Origin: Terriglobia bacterium
Lineage (GTDB): Bacteria > Acidobacteriota > Terriglobia > Bryobacterales > Bryobacteraceae
Reading direction: 5' to 3'
Assembly (NCBI GenBank): GCA_020073305.1
Contig: JAIQFK010000011.1
Location: 1 to 64,000, forward strand
DNA: 64,000 nt
Shown: piece after piece, positions 52,156-58,166 of the stretch
How positions within the stretch are numbered: position 1 is the stretch's first letter
Layout of the letters: each line of letters starts with the position of its first letter
Notes under the pieces: model-generated
What the model saw: the letters and a program-made list of their open reading frames with translations, nothing else
Told to the model about the DNA's origin: nothing
Databases searched by the model: none
Translations under genes and position numbers: made by a program

Positions 52156-53766
52156 TCACACGCCCCAGCAATAATCCTCGACCGCCCGCTCCACCGATTC
52201 ATCCTGCTCCGTCAGCCGCATCAACTCCAGCCGGATCGCGTCCACTAGCGCGGACCAGCTCGCTTCGATGACGTTGTCGGAAACGCCGACCGTCGACCAG
52301 CTCTTGCGGTGATCGGACCACTCGACCAGCACGCGAACGCGCGCGGCAGAACCTTTCTTCGGCTCGAGGACACGCACCTTGTAATCGGTGAGACGGACTT
52401 CGGAGATGCGCGGATAAAGCGCGGACAGGCACTTGCGCAGGCAGACATCGAGCGCGTGCACGGGTCCGTGGCCGCTGGCGGTCGCCGAATGCACGCCATC
52501 CTGCGCGCGCAGATTCACCGTGGCCGTGGAGCGCGACCCCACCGTGCCCGCTGATTTCGTCGTTACCTCGTAGCCCTCGACGTCGAAGAAGTGCAGCCCG
52601 GGATACAGCGCCTCGCGCACCAGCAGTTCGAAAGTTCCCTCGGCGGCTTCCAGCTCGTAGCCGAGATATTCCATTTCTTTGATGCGCTCGAGCAGTTCGC
52701 GCCGCGAATCCTCGCTCAACCGGTCGGCCAGGCCGTGCTGCTTGAGTTTATAGAGCACGTTGCTGCGACCTGAGAGATCACTCACCAGCACGCGTTGCCG
52801 GTTGCCAATGAGCTCCGGCGCGATGTGCTCGTAGGTCGAATTGTCCTTCAGCACCGCGCTCACGTGCACGCCGCCCTTGTGCGCAAACGCGCTGTGGCCC
52901 ACGAACGGCTGGTCACCGCGCAGCGGCAAATTCGCGAGCTCCGCAATGAAGCGCGCCACAGTCGAAAGGCTGGTCAGCTTCTCCGGTCCGACCGTGGTGT
53001 GCCCGAGTTTCAATTCCAGGTTGGCGATGATGGAGGACAAATTGGCATTGCCGCAGCGCTCTCCATACCCGTTCATGCATCCCTGCACGTGGGTGCATCC
53101 CTGCTCGACCGCGGCCAGCGTGTTCGCCACCGCCACATCGGAATCGTTGTGGGTATGGATTCCCAGCACGCCATCGAATCGCTTGCGCACTTCCGACACG
53201 ATCTCGGCCAGCCGTCCGGTGAGCGTACCGCCATTGGTGTCGCAGAGCACCAGCACATCCGCCCCGGCTTTCTGCGCGGCTTCGAGCGTGCGTAGCGCGA
53301 AGGCGGCGTTCGCCAGATACCCGTCGAAGAAATGCTCGGCGTCGTAGACAACCTCTTTGCCGTGGTCTTTCAAATACTTCACGGTCTCTGAGATCAGCGT
53401 CAGGTTTTCTTCTTCCGTGATGCCCAGCGCGCGCTTGGTGTGCAGCTCCCAGCTCTTGCCGAAAATCGAGATCACCGGGGTTCCGGCGGCCACGAGCGCC
53501 GCCACGTTGCGGTCCTCGCCGACCGGATTCTTCGCGAAACGGGTCGCGCCAAAGGCCGTCAGCTTGGCATGATGCAGCTTCAGTTCTTTGGCGCGCTCGA
53601 AAAACTCTTTGTCTTTGGGATTAGAACCCGGCCAGCCACCTTCGATGTAGTCGATTCCCAGCTCGTCCAGCTTCTGCGCGATGACCAGCTTGTCATCGAC
53701 AGAAAACGAGATCGACTCGCCCTGTGTGCCGTCGCGCAGCGTGGTGTCGAAGGTGAAGATTTTCAT
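52156..53766 (-). CDS. cimA: Citramalate synthase
   Basis: A 536-residue HMGL-like acyltransferase of the CimA/LeuA family. It starts [22 protein letters not shown], has the metal-binding [21 protein letters not shown] and [25 protein letters not shown], and a C-terminal LeuA allosteric domain (about 400-520). Length and the GTQGE motif favour (R)-citramalate synthase (pyruvate plus acetyl-CoA), the first step of threonine-independent isoleucine synthesis. It is last in ilvBNC-cimA, and its start overlaps the ilvC stop. With the ilv genes it can feed 2-oxobutyrate to isoleucine. Isopropylmalate synthase is less likely. Confidence 0.85.
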
Positions 53767-54806
53767 TTGCGGGCGGCCAGCGCCGGCTGGTCCTCCGGTA
53801 CCCCGACCTCTTTCTTCTTCTTGAGGAACGTCATCATTTCACGCAGCTCGCGGCCCACCTGCTCGATCTTCTGATTCCGCGCGGCTTCGCGCATGGCGAG
53901 GAAGTTCTTGCGTCCGGTCTTGTTCTCCGTAATCCACTGGCGCGCGAACTCGCCCGACTGCACCTCGGCCAGGATCTTGCGCATTTCGGCGCGCGTCTGC
54001 TCATTCACCACTCTCGACCCGCGCGTGTAATCGCCGTACTCGGCGGTGTCCGAAACCGAATACCGCATGTAGCTCAGACCGCCTTCCTGGATCAGATCGA
54101 CGATCAGCTTCAGCTCGTGCAGGCACTCGAAATAAGCGATCTCGGGCGCGTAACCGGCCTCTACCAGCGTCTCGAACCCCGCGCGGATCAGTTCGCTCAC
54201 GCCGCCGCACAGCACGCTCTGCTCGCCGAACAGGTCGCTCTCGGTCTCTTCGCGGAAATTCGTTTCGATGACCCCGGCTTTCAAACATCCCAGCGCCAGC
54301 GCATAGGCCAGAGCGCGCTCGAGCCCCTTCCCAGACGGATTCTGATGCACCGCCACCAGCGCCGGCACTCCGACGCCTTCGGTGAACAGCTCGCGCACGC
54401 GGTGGCCCGGAGCCTTGGGGGCAATCATGGAAACGTCAACGCCGGCCGGCGGCACGATCTCCTTAAAGTGGATGCAAAAGCCGTGAGCGAACATCAGTGT
54501 CTTGCCCGCCGTCATGTGCGGCGCGATCTCGTTGCTATAGAGGTCGGCCTGCAGGTGGTCCGAAACCAGAATCATGACGATGTCGGCGGCTTTTGCGGCA
54601 TCACTCACGGTCATGACCTTCAGACCGGCTGCTTCGGCCTTGCCCCATGATTTGCTTCCCTGGTACAAGCCCACCACCACATTCACGCCCGAATCGCGCA
54701 GGTTGAGCGCATGCGCGTGTCCCTGGCTGCCATAGCCGATAATGGCCACCGTGTGGCCCTTCAGATTCGCCAGACTCCCGTCTTTTTCGTAATATCGTTT
54801 CGCCAT
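53763..54806 (-). CDS. ilvC: Ketol-acid reductoisomerase, class I
   Basis: A 347-residue enzyme of valine/isoleucine synthesis. It has the NADPH site [20 protein letters not shown], catalytic [18 protein letters not shown], and metal-binding [20 protein letters not shown] and [19 protein letters not shown], i.e. the short class I form. It starts at the base after the ilvN stop and overlaps cimA by 4 bases, so translation is coupled. It carries a Lys-rich tail of about 15 residues after the last core helix. Confidence 0.96.
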
Positions 54807-55439
54807 TTAACTCTCCTCAGTAACTTCAACTTCGTCTTCTTGCCGCGTCGCCCCATCCCCGCCGGAGGCCCGTGCTTCACCCGGGCGTCGCCCCGTATGC
54901 GATACGCCATTGGCATCGCGGGACCCCGTTGGGGTCGCTATCGGTGGCTGCAGCCGCAATTTCTTCGCCTCCAGCGACATCGCCACAGCGCCTGAACGGA
55001 TCACTTCGATATCGCCGTAACTGCGCATTACCTGAACGAATTCGTCGACCTTTTCCGGATCATCCGTCGCTTCGAGAGCAAATCCTTCGGTCGAAGAATC
55101 GATTACGCGCGCTTTGAAGATCTCGGCTTCTTTCAGGATGGCAGTCCGCATTTCGAGCGGCGCTCGCACCCGGATCAGCACCAGCTCGCGGCACACCGCA
55201 GGCGATTCGGTGAGGTCCACCGCCTGCAGCACGTTGACCAGCTTGTTCATCTGCTTGATCACCTGCGCGCGCAGTATGGGATCGACGTCCACCACGATGG
55301 TCATGCGCGACAGCTCGGGGTCGAGCGTGCGCGCGACCGTGAGCGTTTCGATGTTGTAGCCTCGCGCGGTCAGCACCCCGGTGACGCGCATCAGCGCGCC
55401 GGGCTTGTTCTCGAGTAACAGCGAGATCACCTGCAGCAT
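54807..55439 (-). CDS. ilvN: Acetolactate synthase small subunit with extended C-terminus
   Basis: A 210-residue regulatory subunit, with an ACT domain at residues 2-75 (LLLENKPGALMRVTGVLTARGYNIETLTVA) that senses valine and a second domain to about residue 165. Usual proteins end there (about 160-175 residues); this one adds about 40 residues, GRRPGEARASGG and an acidic end, encoded by repeat-like DNA at 54810-54940. The gene follows ilvB by 10 bp and abuts ilvC. The tail could affect feedback inhibition or just be tolerated. Confidence 0.92.
   Translation of the reverse strand: MLQVISLLLENKPGALMRVTGVLTARGYNIETLTVARTLDPELSRMTIVVDVDPILRAQVIKQMNKLVNVLQAVDLTESPAVCRELVLIRVRAPLEMRTAILKEAEIFKARVIDSSTEGFALEATDDPEKVDEFVQVMRSYGDIEVIRSGAVAMSLEAKKLRLQPPIATPTGSRDANGVSHTGRRPGEARASGGDGATRQEDEVEVTEES
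54860..54936. repeat. Interspersed repeat element, copy 2, inside ilvN
   Basis: 54860-54889 matches the intergenic copy at 46777-46806 (28 of 30). It is followed by a 6-bp hairpin GACCCC-GTT-GGGGTC at 54922-54936. Together they fill the extra coding part of ilvN. Confidence 0.65.
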
Positions 55440-55449
55440 GGCAATTTCC

Positions 55450-57180
55450 TCATTTCGGCATGGCCACCGGCTCGGGCGGCCCCATCACCATCTCGTTGAC
55501 CGCGGCGCCTGCCGGAATCATCGGGTAGACGTTTTCAAAGGACGAGACTTTCACATTGAGCAGATACGGACCGGGCTCGCGCACCGCGGCTTCGAGCGCG
55601 CCGGCCAGTTCGTGCGGCTTCTCAATCGTCCGCCCTTTGAATCCATACGCGCCCGCGAGCTTCTCGGCGTCGGGGAAGCATTCCAGTTCCACCGCGCTCA
55701 GCCGGTTGTTGTAGAACAGTTCCTGCCACTGCCGCACCATCCCCAGATAGCCGTTGTTCATCACCACGATCTTGATGGGCAGCCCGTAATTGGCAATGGT
55801 GGCAAGTTCGGGAATGGACATCTGGAAGCCGCCGTCGCCCACCACCGCGAACACCAGCTTGTCGGGCCGCGCAAACTGCGCTCCGATCGAGCTTGGCAGT
55901 CCGAATCCCATTGAGCCCAGTCCGCCCGAGTTGATCCACAGGCGCGGCTCGCTGAAACGGATCAGTTGCGCGGCCCACATCTGGTGTTGTCCCACATCCG
56001 AGCACACAATGGCCTGCCCGCCGGAGAGCCGGTCGATTTCGGCCATCAGGTGTTGCGGCTTGATTTCGGTATCGGAGTAAGAAGGCGCCAGCGGAAATTC
56101 CTGCTTCCACGCGCGCACCTGCGCAAACCAGGCCTTGCGCGCCGCGGCGTTCTTGGCTTTCCGTTCCGGAGTCGCCTCCGCCAGCATCTTGTTCAACCGC
56201 TCGAGCACGCGCTTCACATCGCCCACAATCGGCAGATCCGGCACCCGGTTCTTGCCGATCTCCGCCGGATCGATATCCACGTGAATCACTTTGGCATGCG
56301 GCGCGAATGCGGAGATCCGGCCGGTCACGCGGTCGTCGAAGCGCACGCCCAGTGCGATCATGACGTCGCAGTTCGACATCCCCATGTTCGCCGCGTAGCT
56401 GCCGTGCATCCCCGGCATGCTCACAAAATTCGGGTGCTCAGCCGGCAGTCCGCCCAGTCCCATCAGCGTGCACACCACCGGCATATCCACAATCTCGGCC
56501 AACTCGCGCAAATCCTGTGTTGCGCCAGCCGCGATGATGCCGCCACCCGCATAGACCCAGGGACGCTCGGCGTCCCAGATCATCTGCGCCGCACGCTTCA
56601 CTTGGCCGGTGTGGCCTTCGGTGAACACTTTATAACCAGGGAGATGAATGCTGGTCACCGGCGTGTAGTGCCCTTGCGCCTGGAAAACATCTTTGGGGAC
56701 ATCCACCAGCACCGGGCCGGGCCGGCCGCTCGCCGCGATGTAAAACGCTTCGTGCACGATCTGCGGCAACTCCGCCAGCGTCTTCACCAGGAAATTGTGC
56801 TTGGTGCAGGAGCGCGTGATGCCGAACGTGTCGGCTTCCTGGAAGGCGTCGCTGCCGATCAGCTTGGTCGAAACCTGCCCCGTGATAGCCACAATCGGAA
56901 TCGAATCCATCATGGAATCGACCAGGCCAGTGATCAGGTTGGTCGCTCCCGGACCCGACGTCGCGCAGCAGACCCCCACTTTCCCCGTGGCGCGCGCGTA
57001 CCCTTCGGCCGCAAAGCAGGCGTTCTCTTCGTGGCGCACCAGGATGTGGCGGATGTGGTGGTCGTACATGGCGTCGTAGAAAGGCAGCGTCACGCCGCCC
57101 GGATACCCGAAGAAGCAGTCCACTCCTTCGCGCACCAGACATTCCAGAAGCATCTTCGCGCCACTCATTAAATTCGACAT
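55450..57180 (-). CDS. ilvB: Acetolactate synthase large subunit
   Basis: A 576-residue ThDP enzyme making acetolactate or acetohydroxybutyrate. It shows the N-terminal GVDCFFGYPGGVTLPFYDAM and RHEENACFAAEGYARATGKVGVC with the ThDP-activating Glu, the FAD/central domain (DVPKDVFQAQ), and the C-terminal ThDP motif GDGGFQMSIPELATIANYGLPIKIVVMNN. The start at 57180 has GAGG 8 bases upstream; 11 more in-frame codons upstream overlap the attenuator and are not expected to be used. It is first gene of ilvBNC-cimA, preceded by the leader described below. Confidence 0.95.
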   Translation of the reverse strand: MSNLMSGAKMLLECLVREGVDCFFGYPGGVTLPFYDAMYDHHIRHILVRHEENACFAAEGYARATGKVGVCCATSGPGATNLITGLVDSMMDSIPIVAITGQVSTKLIGSDAFQEADTFGITRSCTKHNFLVKTLAELPQIVHEAFYIAASGRPGPVLVDVPKDVFQAQGHYTPVTSIHLPGYKVFTEGHTGQVKRAAQMIWDAERPWVYAGGGIIAAGATQDLRELAEIVDMPVVCTLMGLGGLPAEHPNFVSMPGMHGSYAANMGMSNCDVMIALGVRFDDRVTGRISAFAPHAKVIHVDIDPAEIGKNRVPDLPIVGDVKRVLERLNKMLAEATPERKAKNAAARKAWFAQVRAWKQEFPLAPSYSDTEIKPQHLMAEIDRLSGGQAIVCSDVGQHQMWAAQLIRFSEPRLWINSGGLGSMGFGLPSSIGAQFARPDKLVFAVVGDGGFQMSIPELATIANYGLPIKIVVMNNGYLGMVRQWQELFYNNRLSAVELECFPDAEKLAGAYGFKGRTIEKPHELAGALEAAVREPGPYLLNVKVSSFENVYPMIPAGAAVNEMVMGPPEPVAMPK

Positions 57181-57210: not shown

Positions 57211-57253
57211 CAAAAAAGGCCATCAGCCGGTTTCTTTTCCCCGCTGATGGCCT
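57211..57253 (-). terminator. Intrinsic terminator in the ilvB leader (attenuator)
   Basis: On the minus strand, stem AGGCCATCAGC/GCTGATGGCCT (11 bp, perfect; 57243-57253 with 57217-57227) has a 15-base loop and is followed by T6 (57212-57217). It ends about 31 bases before the ilvB ATG. Its 5' arm shares 57249-57253 with the competing upstream hairpin. Confidence 0.9.
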
Positions 57254-57274
57254 CGGAACCCTATCCGAGCGGCC
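57249..57274 (-). promoter_or_regulatory. Antiterminator hairpin candidate
   Basis: TCGGA plus flanks pairs as 6 bp (57252-57257 with 57264-57269) and, past a 2-base bulge, 3 more (57249-57251 with 57272-57274). It uses five bases of the terminator's 5' arm, so both cannot form fully at once. It begins right after the leader-peptide stop codon at 57275-57277. Confidence 0.65.
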
Positions 57275-57361
57275 TCAAGCGGGGCCGGATACGATGACCA
57301 GAATAATAATGCTGACGAGAGATTCGGAGCGAACGGAACGAGATGTGGAGCCTTCGAACAT
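57275..57361 (-). CDS. Branched-chain amino acid leader peptide of ilvB
   Basis: A 28-codon ORF, ATG 57361 to TGA 57275, that ends in S-I-I-I-L-V-I-V-S-G-P-A with L-V two codons earlier: four Ile, three Val and two Leu in residues 15-24. The run occupies 57319-57290, ending about 13 bases before the stop codon, where a ribosome stalled for lack of charged tRNA would leave the antiterminator free. A ribosome reaching the stop would cover it and let the terminator form. This is the logic of E. coli ivbL. The Shine-Dalgarno site is weak, and the predicted transcript start lies only a few bases upstream. Confidence 0.8.
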   Translation of the reverse strand: MFEGSTSRSVRSESLVSIIILVIVSGPA

Positions 57362-57372
57362 CACAAACTCAA

Positions 57373-57401
57373 AGTGTAGCCGGAAAGAATCGCAAATGCA
57401 A
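57373..57401 (-). promoter_or_regulatory. Candidate promoter of the ilv operon
   Basis: Minus-strand TTGCAT (57396-57401) and TACACT (57373-57378) are 17 bases apart, each 4 of 6 to the sigma-70 consensus. A start site about 7 bases after the -10 would lie near 57366, giving a 5' end almost at the leader ATG (57361). Confidence 0.5.
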
Positions 57402-57438
57402 GAGGCCGGGATTATTAAAACCGCTTATAGGTAGATTA

Positions 57439-57774
57439 TCACTTGCGCCGCCGCGCCCACCACGCTCCCAGGCAGAACCCGATGAGCGCAGCGCCGGCCA
57501 GTCTTCGCTTATCGCTGAGCGGGATGAAGCGGGTTTCAGCATCTGACACTTCCAGCACGCCGATCGGCACGGCATATACTCCACCGCCACCGCCCTCGCC
57601 TTCCGGTGAGTCCGGCTCTTGATGTTTGCGGCCCCGTCCGCCGCCGAACCCGTAGGCGACGCGCGCCACCGGGATGATGGTCTTGCCGTTTGCGGAAATC
57701 GCCTCGCCGTAAACGGATTTGACACTGGCGCTCCGCGTGAGCGGCTCGAACATGGATTCCAATTTGGGCGACAT
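57439..57774 (-). CDS. GerW/YtfJ-family protein
   Basis: A 111-residue protein of the GerW (YtfJ) family: a compact beta domain with SVYGEAISANGKTIIPVARVAYGFGGG, a Gly-rich loop, GVYAVPIGVLEVSDAETRFIPL, and a C-terminal hydrophobic helix (AGAALIGFCLGAWW) with a basic end. In Bacillus it is needed for spore germination, but the family is wide and non-spore formers carry it; the role here is unknown. ATG 57774 follows GGAGGG. The longer open frame upstream overlaps the cupin gene and is not used. Confidence 0.75.
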   Translation of the reverse strand: MSPKLESMFEPLTRSASVKSVYGEAISANGKTIIPVARVAYGFGGGRGRKHQEPDSPEGEGGGGGVYAVPIGVLEVSDAETRFIPLSDKRRLAGAALIGFCLGAWWARRRK

Positions 57775-57800
57775 ATGACCCTCCGTCACATAATGATGAC

Positions 57801-58166
57801 TTACGGTTCGTCCCGATGCACGCTTTCCATGGAGAAAGCAGGCAGACACACCGCGATGTACTCCGCGCCTTCCGGTTCCGGCGTGCTGTAACGCACCCAT
57901 TCCCCCTTGTGCGCGATCACGGCCTGTCCGGTGCGCACCTCCATGGCGCCGCCGCGATACTCGATTCGCAGCACGCCCTGCAGCACGATGGTGAATTCAT
58001 CGAACTCAGGTGTTTGCCCCGGTTCCTGCCAGCTTCCGGGACTGCGCATGTGCGCAATGCTCACGGCCTCATTGTTCGAGTTGAGACGGCCGATATACTC
58101 ATCGATAAGCTTGGGCTTATTGCCGGCGGCCTGGACGCGCGTCGGCCTGGAAAGCAAAGTGGGCAT
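57801..58166 (-). CDS. Cupin-domain protein
   Basis: A 121-residue single-domain cupin with the two conserved barrel motifs in weak form: PEFDEFTIVLQGVLRIEYRGG (motif 1, with one of the His positions occupied by other residues) and KGEWVRYSTPEPEGAEYIAVC (motif 2). Cupins bind metals or small ligands and include many enzymes and binding proteins; the activity is not assigned. It lies 26 bp upstream of the GerW-like gene and is divergent from the next ORF. Confidence 0.7.
   Translation of the reverse strand: MPTLLSRPTRVQAAGNKPKLIDEYIGRLNSNNEAVSIAHMRSPGSWQEPGQTPEFDEFTIVLQGVLRIEYRGGAMEVRTGQAVIAHKGEWVRYSTPEPEGAEYIAVCLPAFSMESVHRDEP

Follow-up and report, generated by a model that had tools for sequence, protein, structure and literature searches.

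The ilvBNC-cimA locus and its leader

In the window, the whole 64,000-nt stretch of Terriglobia DNA analysed, a promoter-like site, a leader ORF, an antiterminator (57284-57239), a terminator and the genes ilvB-ilvN-ilvC-cimA follow one another in this order on the minus strand. Acetolactate synthase is encoded by ilvB (large subunit, 55450-57180, TIGR00118) and ilvN (small subunit, 54807-55439), ketol-acid reductoisomerase by ilvC (53763-54806), and citramalate synthase by cimA (52156-53766; TIGR00977, 702 bits with a cut-off of 450). An ilvBNC-cimA operon had been proposed in an earlier sequence-only reading of this DNA, and all four gene identities were confirmed by profile matches. Since ilvN and ilvC abut (54807/54806) and ilvC and cimA overlap by 4 nt (53763/53766), the arrangement fits a single operon. 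Among the family genomes with both genes, cimA was located 3' of ilvB, on the same strand and within 4 kb, in 94 of 106, and in 11 of the remaining 12 it was on another contig. The nearest matches of IlvB among named records were from Bryobacterales and other Acidobacteria MAGs (74-78% identity). IlvN extends about 50 C-terminal residues past the small-subunit model (match 3-161 of 210). The gene immediately upstream (57439-57900, minus strand) has a weak match to the GerW/YtfJ sporulation family (TIGR02874, 35.9 bits, cut-off 116.3); we know of no spores from Acidobacteriota. In the same genome, nine leuA-like or ilvD-like loci were found, and leaders like that of ilvB were absent before the six that were scored (L278-L280, L283-L285; best 5/10).

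The leader ORF (57275-57361, minus strand) encodes MFEGSTSRSVRSESLVSIIILVIVSGPA in 28 codons, from an ATG at 57361 to a TGA stop codon (57277-57275), and ends in ESLVSIIILVIVSGPA, its tail also being given as LVSIIILVIVSGPA; an alternative GTG start at 57364 lies one codon upstream. The 28-codon ORF with an LVSIIILVIV run had been noted in the sequence-only reading and is present where it had been placed. By sequence and position profile, this run represents the control codons -14 to -5 (57290-57319), with Ile encoded by three ATT and one ATC and Val by two GTC and one GTA, and seven of the nine Ile/Val/Leu codons are at -7 or farther upstream.

In the leaders of the family, 63% of the in-frame codons -16 to -4 encode Ile, Val or Leu, against 20% and 3% in the other frames. 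The description as an Ile/Val/Leu leader holds as regards richness in branched-chain codons, but needs modification in that the totals for Val (572) and Ile (399) are far above that for Leu (134). Rare codons were preferred in the family leaders compared with 12 window genes (ATT, 63% against 23%; GTA, 57% against 5%; CTT, 41% against 9%), and likewise in the leaders compared with ilvB of the same 30 genomes (ATT, 65% against 22%; GTA, 49% against 5%). Codon -5 is GTA in 102 and codon -7 is GTC in 84 of 135 family leaders, and codons -9, -10 and -11 are ATT in 62, 63 and 50 of them. A rationale for rarely used, sensitive codons as control codons is given in the excerpts of PMC1183508. The C-terminal end of the 135 leaders is mostly Gly-Pro-Ala, with Ala at -1 in 117, Pro at -2 in 110 and Gly at -3 in 78.

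The promoter-like site (57373-57401, minus strand) consists of TTGCAT (57401-57396), a 17-nt spacer and TACACT (57378-57373), and the distance from the -10 box to the start codon is 8 nt for GTG or 11 nt for ATG. An exact TTGCAT-N16-18-TANNNT was found upstream of 128 of the 135 family leaders. In these 128, the first in-frame start after the -10 box came within at most 10 nt in 61, at 11-20 nt in 57 and beyond 20 nt in 9, with none in 1, and a Shine-Dalgarno-like tetramer or longer was present between the -10 box and the start in 16, pointing to a transcript that is probably leaderless or nearly so. Conservation of the promoter (57373-57425, minus strand; 115 aligned family promoters) is not confined to the -35 and -10 boxes: it includes positions 13-16 and 24 nt before TTGCAT as well as part of the spacer, the conserved elements being T.AT (16-13 nt before TTGCAT), CTTGCATTT and CTT.T (spacer). 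This wider composite pattern, with up to three mismatches, had a single occurrence in the 7-Mb genome of the window and no second copy there, and the reversed-pattern control gave 0. From the pattern, a dedicated activator or an unusual sigma factor is possible at this promoter.

The terminator and its occurrence among relatives

The intrinsic terminator (57212-57254, minus strand) is composed of a hairpin (57254-57216) with the stem AGGCCATCAGC/GCTGATGGCCT and a run of six T (57217-57212), the 11th pair taking the first T of the run, and from the end of the T-run to the ATG of ilvB at 57180 there are 31 nt. The 11-bp stem, the T6 and the distance to ilvB had been described in the sequence-only reading and were all found in place. 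A simple terminator scan listed no site here, presumably because its loops were limited to 3-8. The 101 nt from 57205 to 57305 fold at -46.6 kcal/mol (z -4.2), and 0 of 200 shuffles were as good.

The 261-nt region had a DNA match in 11 of 41 genomes, its own included. IlvB was found in 111 of 121 family genomes, in 115 of 120 genomes of the order sample and in 141 of 297 of the phylum sample. Of the 111 family genomes, 106 upstream regions were obtained first, four had no ilvB start, and G090, which was split, was added later. In total, the upstream regions of 143 family loci were scored, together with 1 of f2, 17 of f3, 7 of f4 and 18 of other families.

Leaders in which 6 or more of 10 residues are Ile, Val or Leu were present in 131 of 143 family loci, 0 of 1 in f2, 8 of 17 in f3, 0 of 7 in f4 and 8 of 18 in the other families, these last 18 being drawn mostly from the top of a similarity list; the dinucleotide-shuffle controls gave 62/1430, 0/10, 3/170, 0/70 and 5/180, respectively. 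Among 13 further loci of other families, scored without shuffles, such a leader was found in 3. When a leader (at least 4/10 Ile/Val/Leu) was combined with a terminator below -15 kcal/mol, both were found in 135 of 143 family loci, 1 of 1 in f2, 8 of 17 in f3, 10 of 18 in other families and 1 of 2 named loci, and in 13 of 286 family shuffles put through the same procedure. Under stricter limits (at least 6/10, below -20), the numbers were 126 of 143 real and 1 of 286 shuffled loci. The pair was missing in 8 of the 143 family loci. Of the four loci with an Acidobacteria or Bryobacterales name (L118-L121), L120 had the element, none was found in L119, and the other two were at contig ends. In G113 (locus L068), where leader and terminator are present, ilvB (TAG) and cimA (TGA) are each read with one in-frame stop codon.

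In the f4 genomes, which belong to the same class, no leader rich in Ile, Leu and Val was found before ilvB in any of the seven, and a search 2 kb farther upstream gave one weak ORF each in two of them. In f4 loci (L216, L217, L273, L275, L276) and in L208, L214, L298-L302 and L307, ilvB comes right after the end of another ORF, without a leader of its own. The last residues of the preceding ORF may be those of IlvD, and the head of the operon is apparently changed in these loci.

Pairing of the leader end with the terminator arm

The 5' strand of the antiterminator (strand 2, 57271-57284, minus strand) is made up of CCCCGCT from the last codons of the leader, the TGA stop codon and GGCC, and it pairs with 57252-57239, GGCCATCAGCGGGG, which is the entire 5' arm of the terminator (strand 3). 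Between them is the apical hairpin (57253-57268; TCGGA-TAGGGT-TCCGA, with TCGGA at 57268-57264 and TCCGA at 57257-57253). This is the hairpin that the sequence-only reading had placed before the terminator, and it is present as seen there; the five-base overlap between the two hairpins is rejected, because the complete terminator 5' arm is shared. The idea of a switch between alternative hairpins stands, with conservation and compensatory changes, in the modified form that the antiterminator starts inside the leader ORF.

In the family, the terminator 5' arm continues into GGCGGGG and pairs with the Gly-Pro-Ala codons, the stop codon and the following bases, and the conservation of Gly-Pro-Ala-stop is explained by this predicted RNA pairing, not by the peptide. 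Where the leader departs from this ending, the arm has often changed as well, as in L059 (TTCGCC/GGCGAA), L079 (CCTCGCC/GGCGAGG), L087 (TCCGCC/GGCGGA), L107 (GTCCCGCC/GGCGGGAC) and f3 (GCCCCGG/CCGGGGC). When cognate pairing was compared with permuted pairing in 134 family loci, the terminator (3:4) had a z of -23.8 and the 2:3 helix a z of -12.1, and the cross pairs 1:3 and 2:4 had z -1.0 and 0.1, permutations and shuffles alike leaving the relatedness among loci in place. The mean cognate 2:3 energy was reached by 0 of 10000 permutations, both in all 153 loci and in the 75 off-consensus leaders. This is a group effect, since for a single off-consensus leader a median of 26% (mean 35%) of other arms pair equally well. 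The pairing tests covered 153 of 155 loci: L117 was dropped for a wrong ORF pick in one scan (the pick was good in another, and the locus is included in the alignment below), L207 was dropped for a poor pick, and L028, also a poor pick, was kept.

On alignment A1, which holds 56 of 99 candidate references picked by eye for like geometry, 97.7% of the terminator cells were paired, against 14-51% in slid controls, and 93.6% of the cells of the antiterminator core, against 43-58%. In the core, three pairs changed on both sides and 0 of 500 shuffles reached the covariation score; its outermost pair was unpaired in 14 of the 56. In the 134 family loci, the antiterminator hairpin had a mean z of -3.2, and at least 6 pairs between leader or stop codon and the terminator arm were found in 133. 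A protector helix 1:2 of the trp type had a z of -4.1, yet one of four control pairs was at -3.4, and the 1:4 helix of the minimum-energy fold was reached by 0 of 10000 permutations but its covariation score by 43 of 500 column shuffles; neither helix is established by these comparisons.

Leaders of the same layout and unrelated sequence were found before ilvB in other families of the phylum. Outside the order, the leader pairs with its own arm in L205 (GGATGACGG), L210 (CCGGGTGACGG), L200 and L206 (GCTCGCCG), and L297, L304 and L305. For the arms of these seven loci, the fraction of other leaders pairing as well was 0.00 (two decimals), and for the arms of L198, L201, L203, L213 and L215 it was 0.13, 0.39, 0.05, 0.04 and 0.01. 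In the reverse direction, the leaders of nine such loci gave 0.02 to 0.93 with other arms, a wide range due to the GC-rich arms of the family. Plain folding from 12 nt before the stop codon gave at least 6 leader:arm pairs in seven of nine such loci outside the order.

The attenuation model, its rivals and related systems

The region very probably acts as a transcription attenuator controlled by a translating ribosome, with charged tRNA-Ile and tRNA-Val as the main signals sensed and charged tRNA-Leu as a lesser one. Attenuation had been proposed in the sequence-only reading and is supported, as the conservation of the leader frame and of the hairpin pairing was tested among relatives without contradicting it. 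The transcript would begin at the leader start codon or only slightly upstream of it, so that a ribosome would load on an RNA whose 5' UTR is very short or absent. When Ile or Val is scarce, the ribosome would stall in the run of Ile/Val/Leu codons, at least seven codons before the stop, leaving the last codons, the stop codon and GGCC free to pair with the emerging terminator 5' arm, and with the antiterminator formed, the polymerase would continue into ilvBNC-cimA. When amino acids are plentiful, a ribosome at the stop codon would cover strand 2, the terminator hairpin would form and transcription would end.

The masking model assumes that the leading edge of the ribosome is at +15 from the first P-site base, giving a cover of 15 nt past that base. 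In the model, a stall at codon -7 or farther upstream frees strand 2, one at -5 hides most of it and a ribosome at the stop codon hides all of it. With the leader masked at codon -10, -7, -5 or the stop codon, the antiterminator was predicted to form ahead of the terminator 3' arm in 128, 127, 61 and 0 of 134 loci, respectively. At equilibrium on the whole leader, the terminator was favoured (P(T) >0.5) in 114 and 108 of the 134 loci with a ribosome at -10 and -7, and P(T) was 0.95 for the window leader with a ribosome at codon -10. Because a stalled ribosome does not keep the terminator from prevailing at equilibrium in most loci, the switch would have to be kinetic, a matter of timing, as in other attenuators.

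A variant in which the antiterminator forms without a ribosome, so that the operon is on by default and termination requires translation as far as the stop codon, is unlikely. In its favour, strand 2 of the ribosome-free window leader makes 14.8 pairs with the terminator 5' arm while the 3' arm has yet to be transcribed, the equilibrium P(terminator) is 0.12, and the minimum-energy folds of the whole window leader consist of the antiterminator and the 1:4 helix. The variant depends on that helix, however, which beats permutations but not column shuffles, and a calculation without it prefers the terminator state in all 134 loci, with -53.9 against -44.3 for the window leader. Across the family, the ribosome-free leader is predicted to form the antiterminator ahead of the 3' arm in 92 of 134 loci, but P(T) is above 0.5 in 116 of 134, and in Corynebacterium glutamicum, loss of the leader start codon cuts expression by 80%, according to the excerpts of PMC11857589. 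The broader proposal is equally doubtful that an old Acidobacteriota class of leaderless two-hairpin attenuators exists in which strand 2 consists of the last part of the leader ORF including the stop codon, termination, at least here, needs a ribosome at the stop and the operon is on when the leader is untranslated, with the C. glutamicum ilvBNC attenuator being convergent.

It is very improbable that the terminator is constitutive or under another signal (riboswitch, T-box, RNA-binding protein) and the ORF incidental. Conservation of the terminator is expected under any signal, and the promoter region is also unusually conserved, but the Ile/Val/Leu codons are frame-specific and rare codons are used, the pairing strand is at the leader end even among unrelated sequences, and the only Rfam match of the window at gathering score is a tRNA elsewhere. 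A riboswitch, T-box or known RNA family at the locus was rejected, as no Rfam match reached the gathering score there; the leader matches in the window were two weak sub-threshold ones, one of them on the opposite strand. Among 18 related loci none was at gathering score either, the nearest in kind being a sub-threshold match in L201 (380-497) to the threonine operon leader (Thr_leader, RF00506; 32.1 of 55 bits). An independent origin of the attenuator, put forward in the sequence-only reading, does not follow from the lack of an Rfam match. Control by the leader of Rho-dependent termination or of ilvB translation, instead of intrinsic termination, is scarcely credible: the short spacing to ilvB (31 nt) makes translational effects possible, but the hairpin and U-run are far above shuffles and show covariation, and the antiterminator pairs with the terminator 5' arm.

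Attenuators of the E. coli type have a protector helix, and most of their antiterminator strand is located 3' of the stop codon. The attenuator proposed here differs in that strand 2 extends over the final leader codons and the stop codon itself, and in that the 5' UTR of the leader seems to be very short or absent. The proposed attenuator resembles E. coli ilvBN (ivbL) and ilvGMEDA in having a branched-chain leader and alternative hairpins before acetolactate synthase genes, as far as the excerpts of PMC1183508 describe them. Ribosome-mediated attenuation at ilvB has been described in E. coli and Corynebacterium (excerpts of PMC10272879, PMC11857589, PMC1183508).

The closest described case is the ilvBNC attenuator of C. 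glutamicum (IlvL MTIIRLVVVTARRLP; ilvB-II motif), which likewise heads an ilvBNC operon. According to the excerpts of PMC11857589 and PMC10272879, its transcription starts one nucleotide from the leader start codon, its control codons are CUU and GUA, and its antiterminator pairs 36-38 with 76-78, which by the coordinates given would put 36-38 inside the leader ORF. An antiterminator strand at the end of the leader ORF, found here by pairing and covariation, would be a shared feature. Unlike the present case, the leader peptide is another one, the operon is described without cimA in these excerpts, and the C. glutamicum model has a third hairpin (antiantiterminator), which is not established in the Terriglobia leader.

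The ilvB-OMG motif (41 representatives in various phyla) and the Leptospira ilvB motif have uORFs rich in branched-chain codons before ilvB (excerpts of PMC10272879); both were absent from the Rfam matches of the window and of the 18 related loci, although Rfam may not hold them. The leader peptide IlvL of Streptomyces lividans ilvBHC is leaderless and accompanied by hairpins and a U-rich region (excerpts of PMC8079986); unlike the present leader, it (MRTRILVLGKRVG) has few control codons. In S. coelicolor, substituting possible control codons had no effect (excerpts of PMC1262725).

In the literature searched, with most subscription papers and supplementary lists outside its scope, no described Acidobacteriota case was found, in agreement with the statement in the sequence-only reading. 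Of the attenuators that a 2010 survey predicted in phyla such as Acidobacteria, hardly any were associated with a function (excerpts of PMC2965389); the present locus is an attenuator of this phylum with a likely function. The design, with two hairpins, is simple and testable; of note are how deeply it is conserved, an antiterminator strand that spans the stop codon, and a default state open to testing. The citramalate route to isoleucine would be tied to the sensing of Ile and Val, and leader-peptide control of branched-chain amino acid synthesis would extend across a family and an order of a large soil phylum that is difficult to work with, similar arrangements being present in other families.
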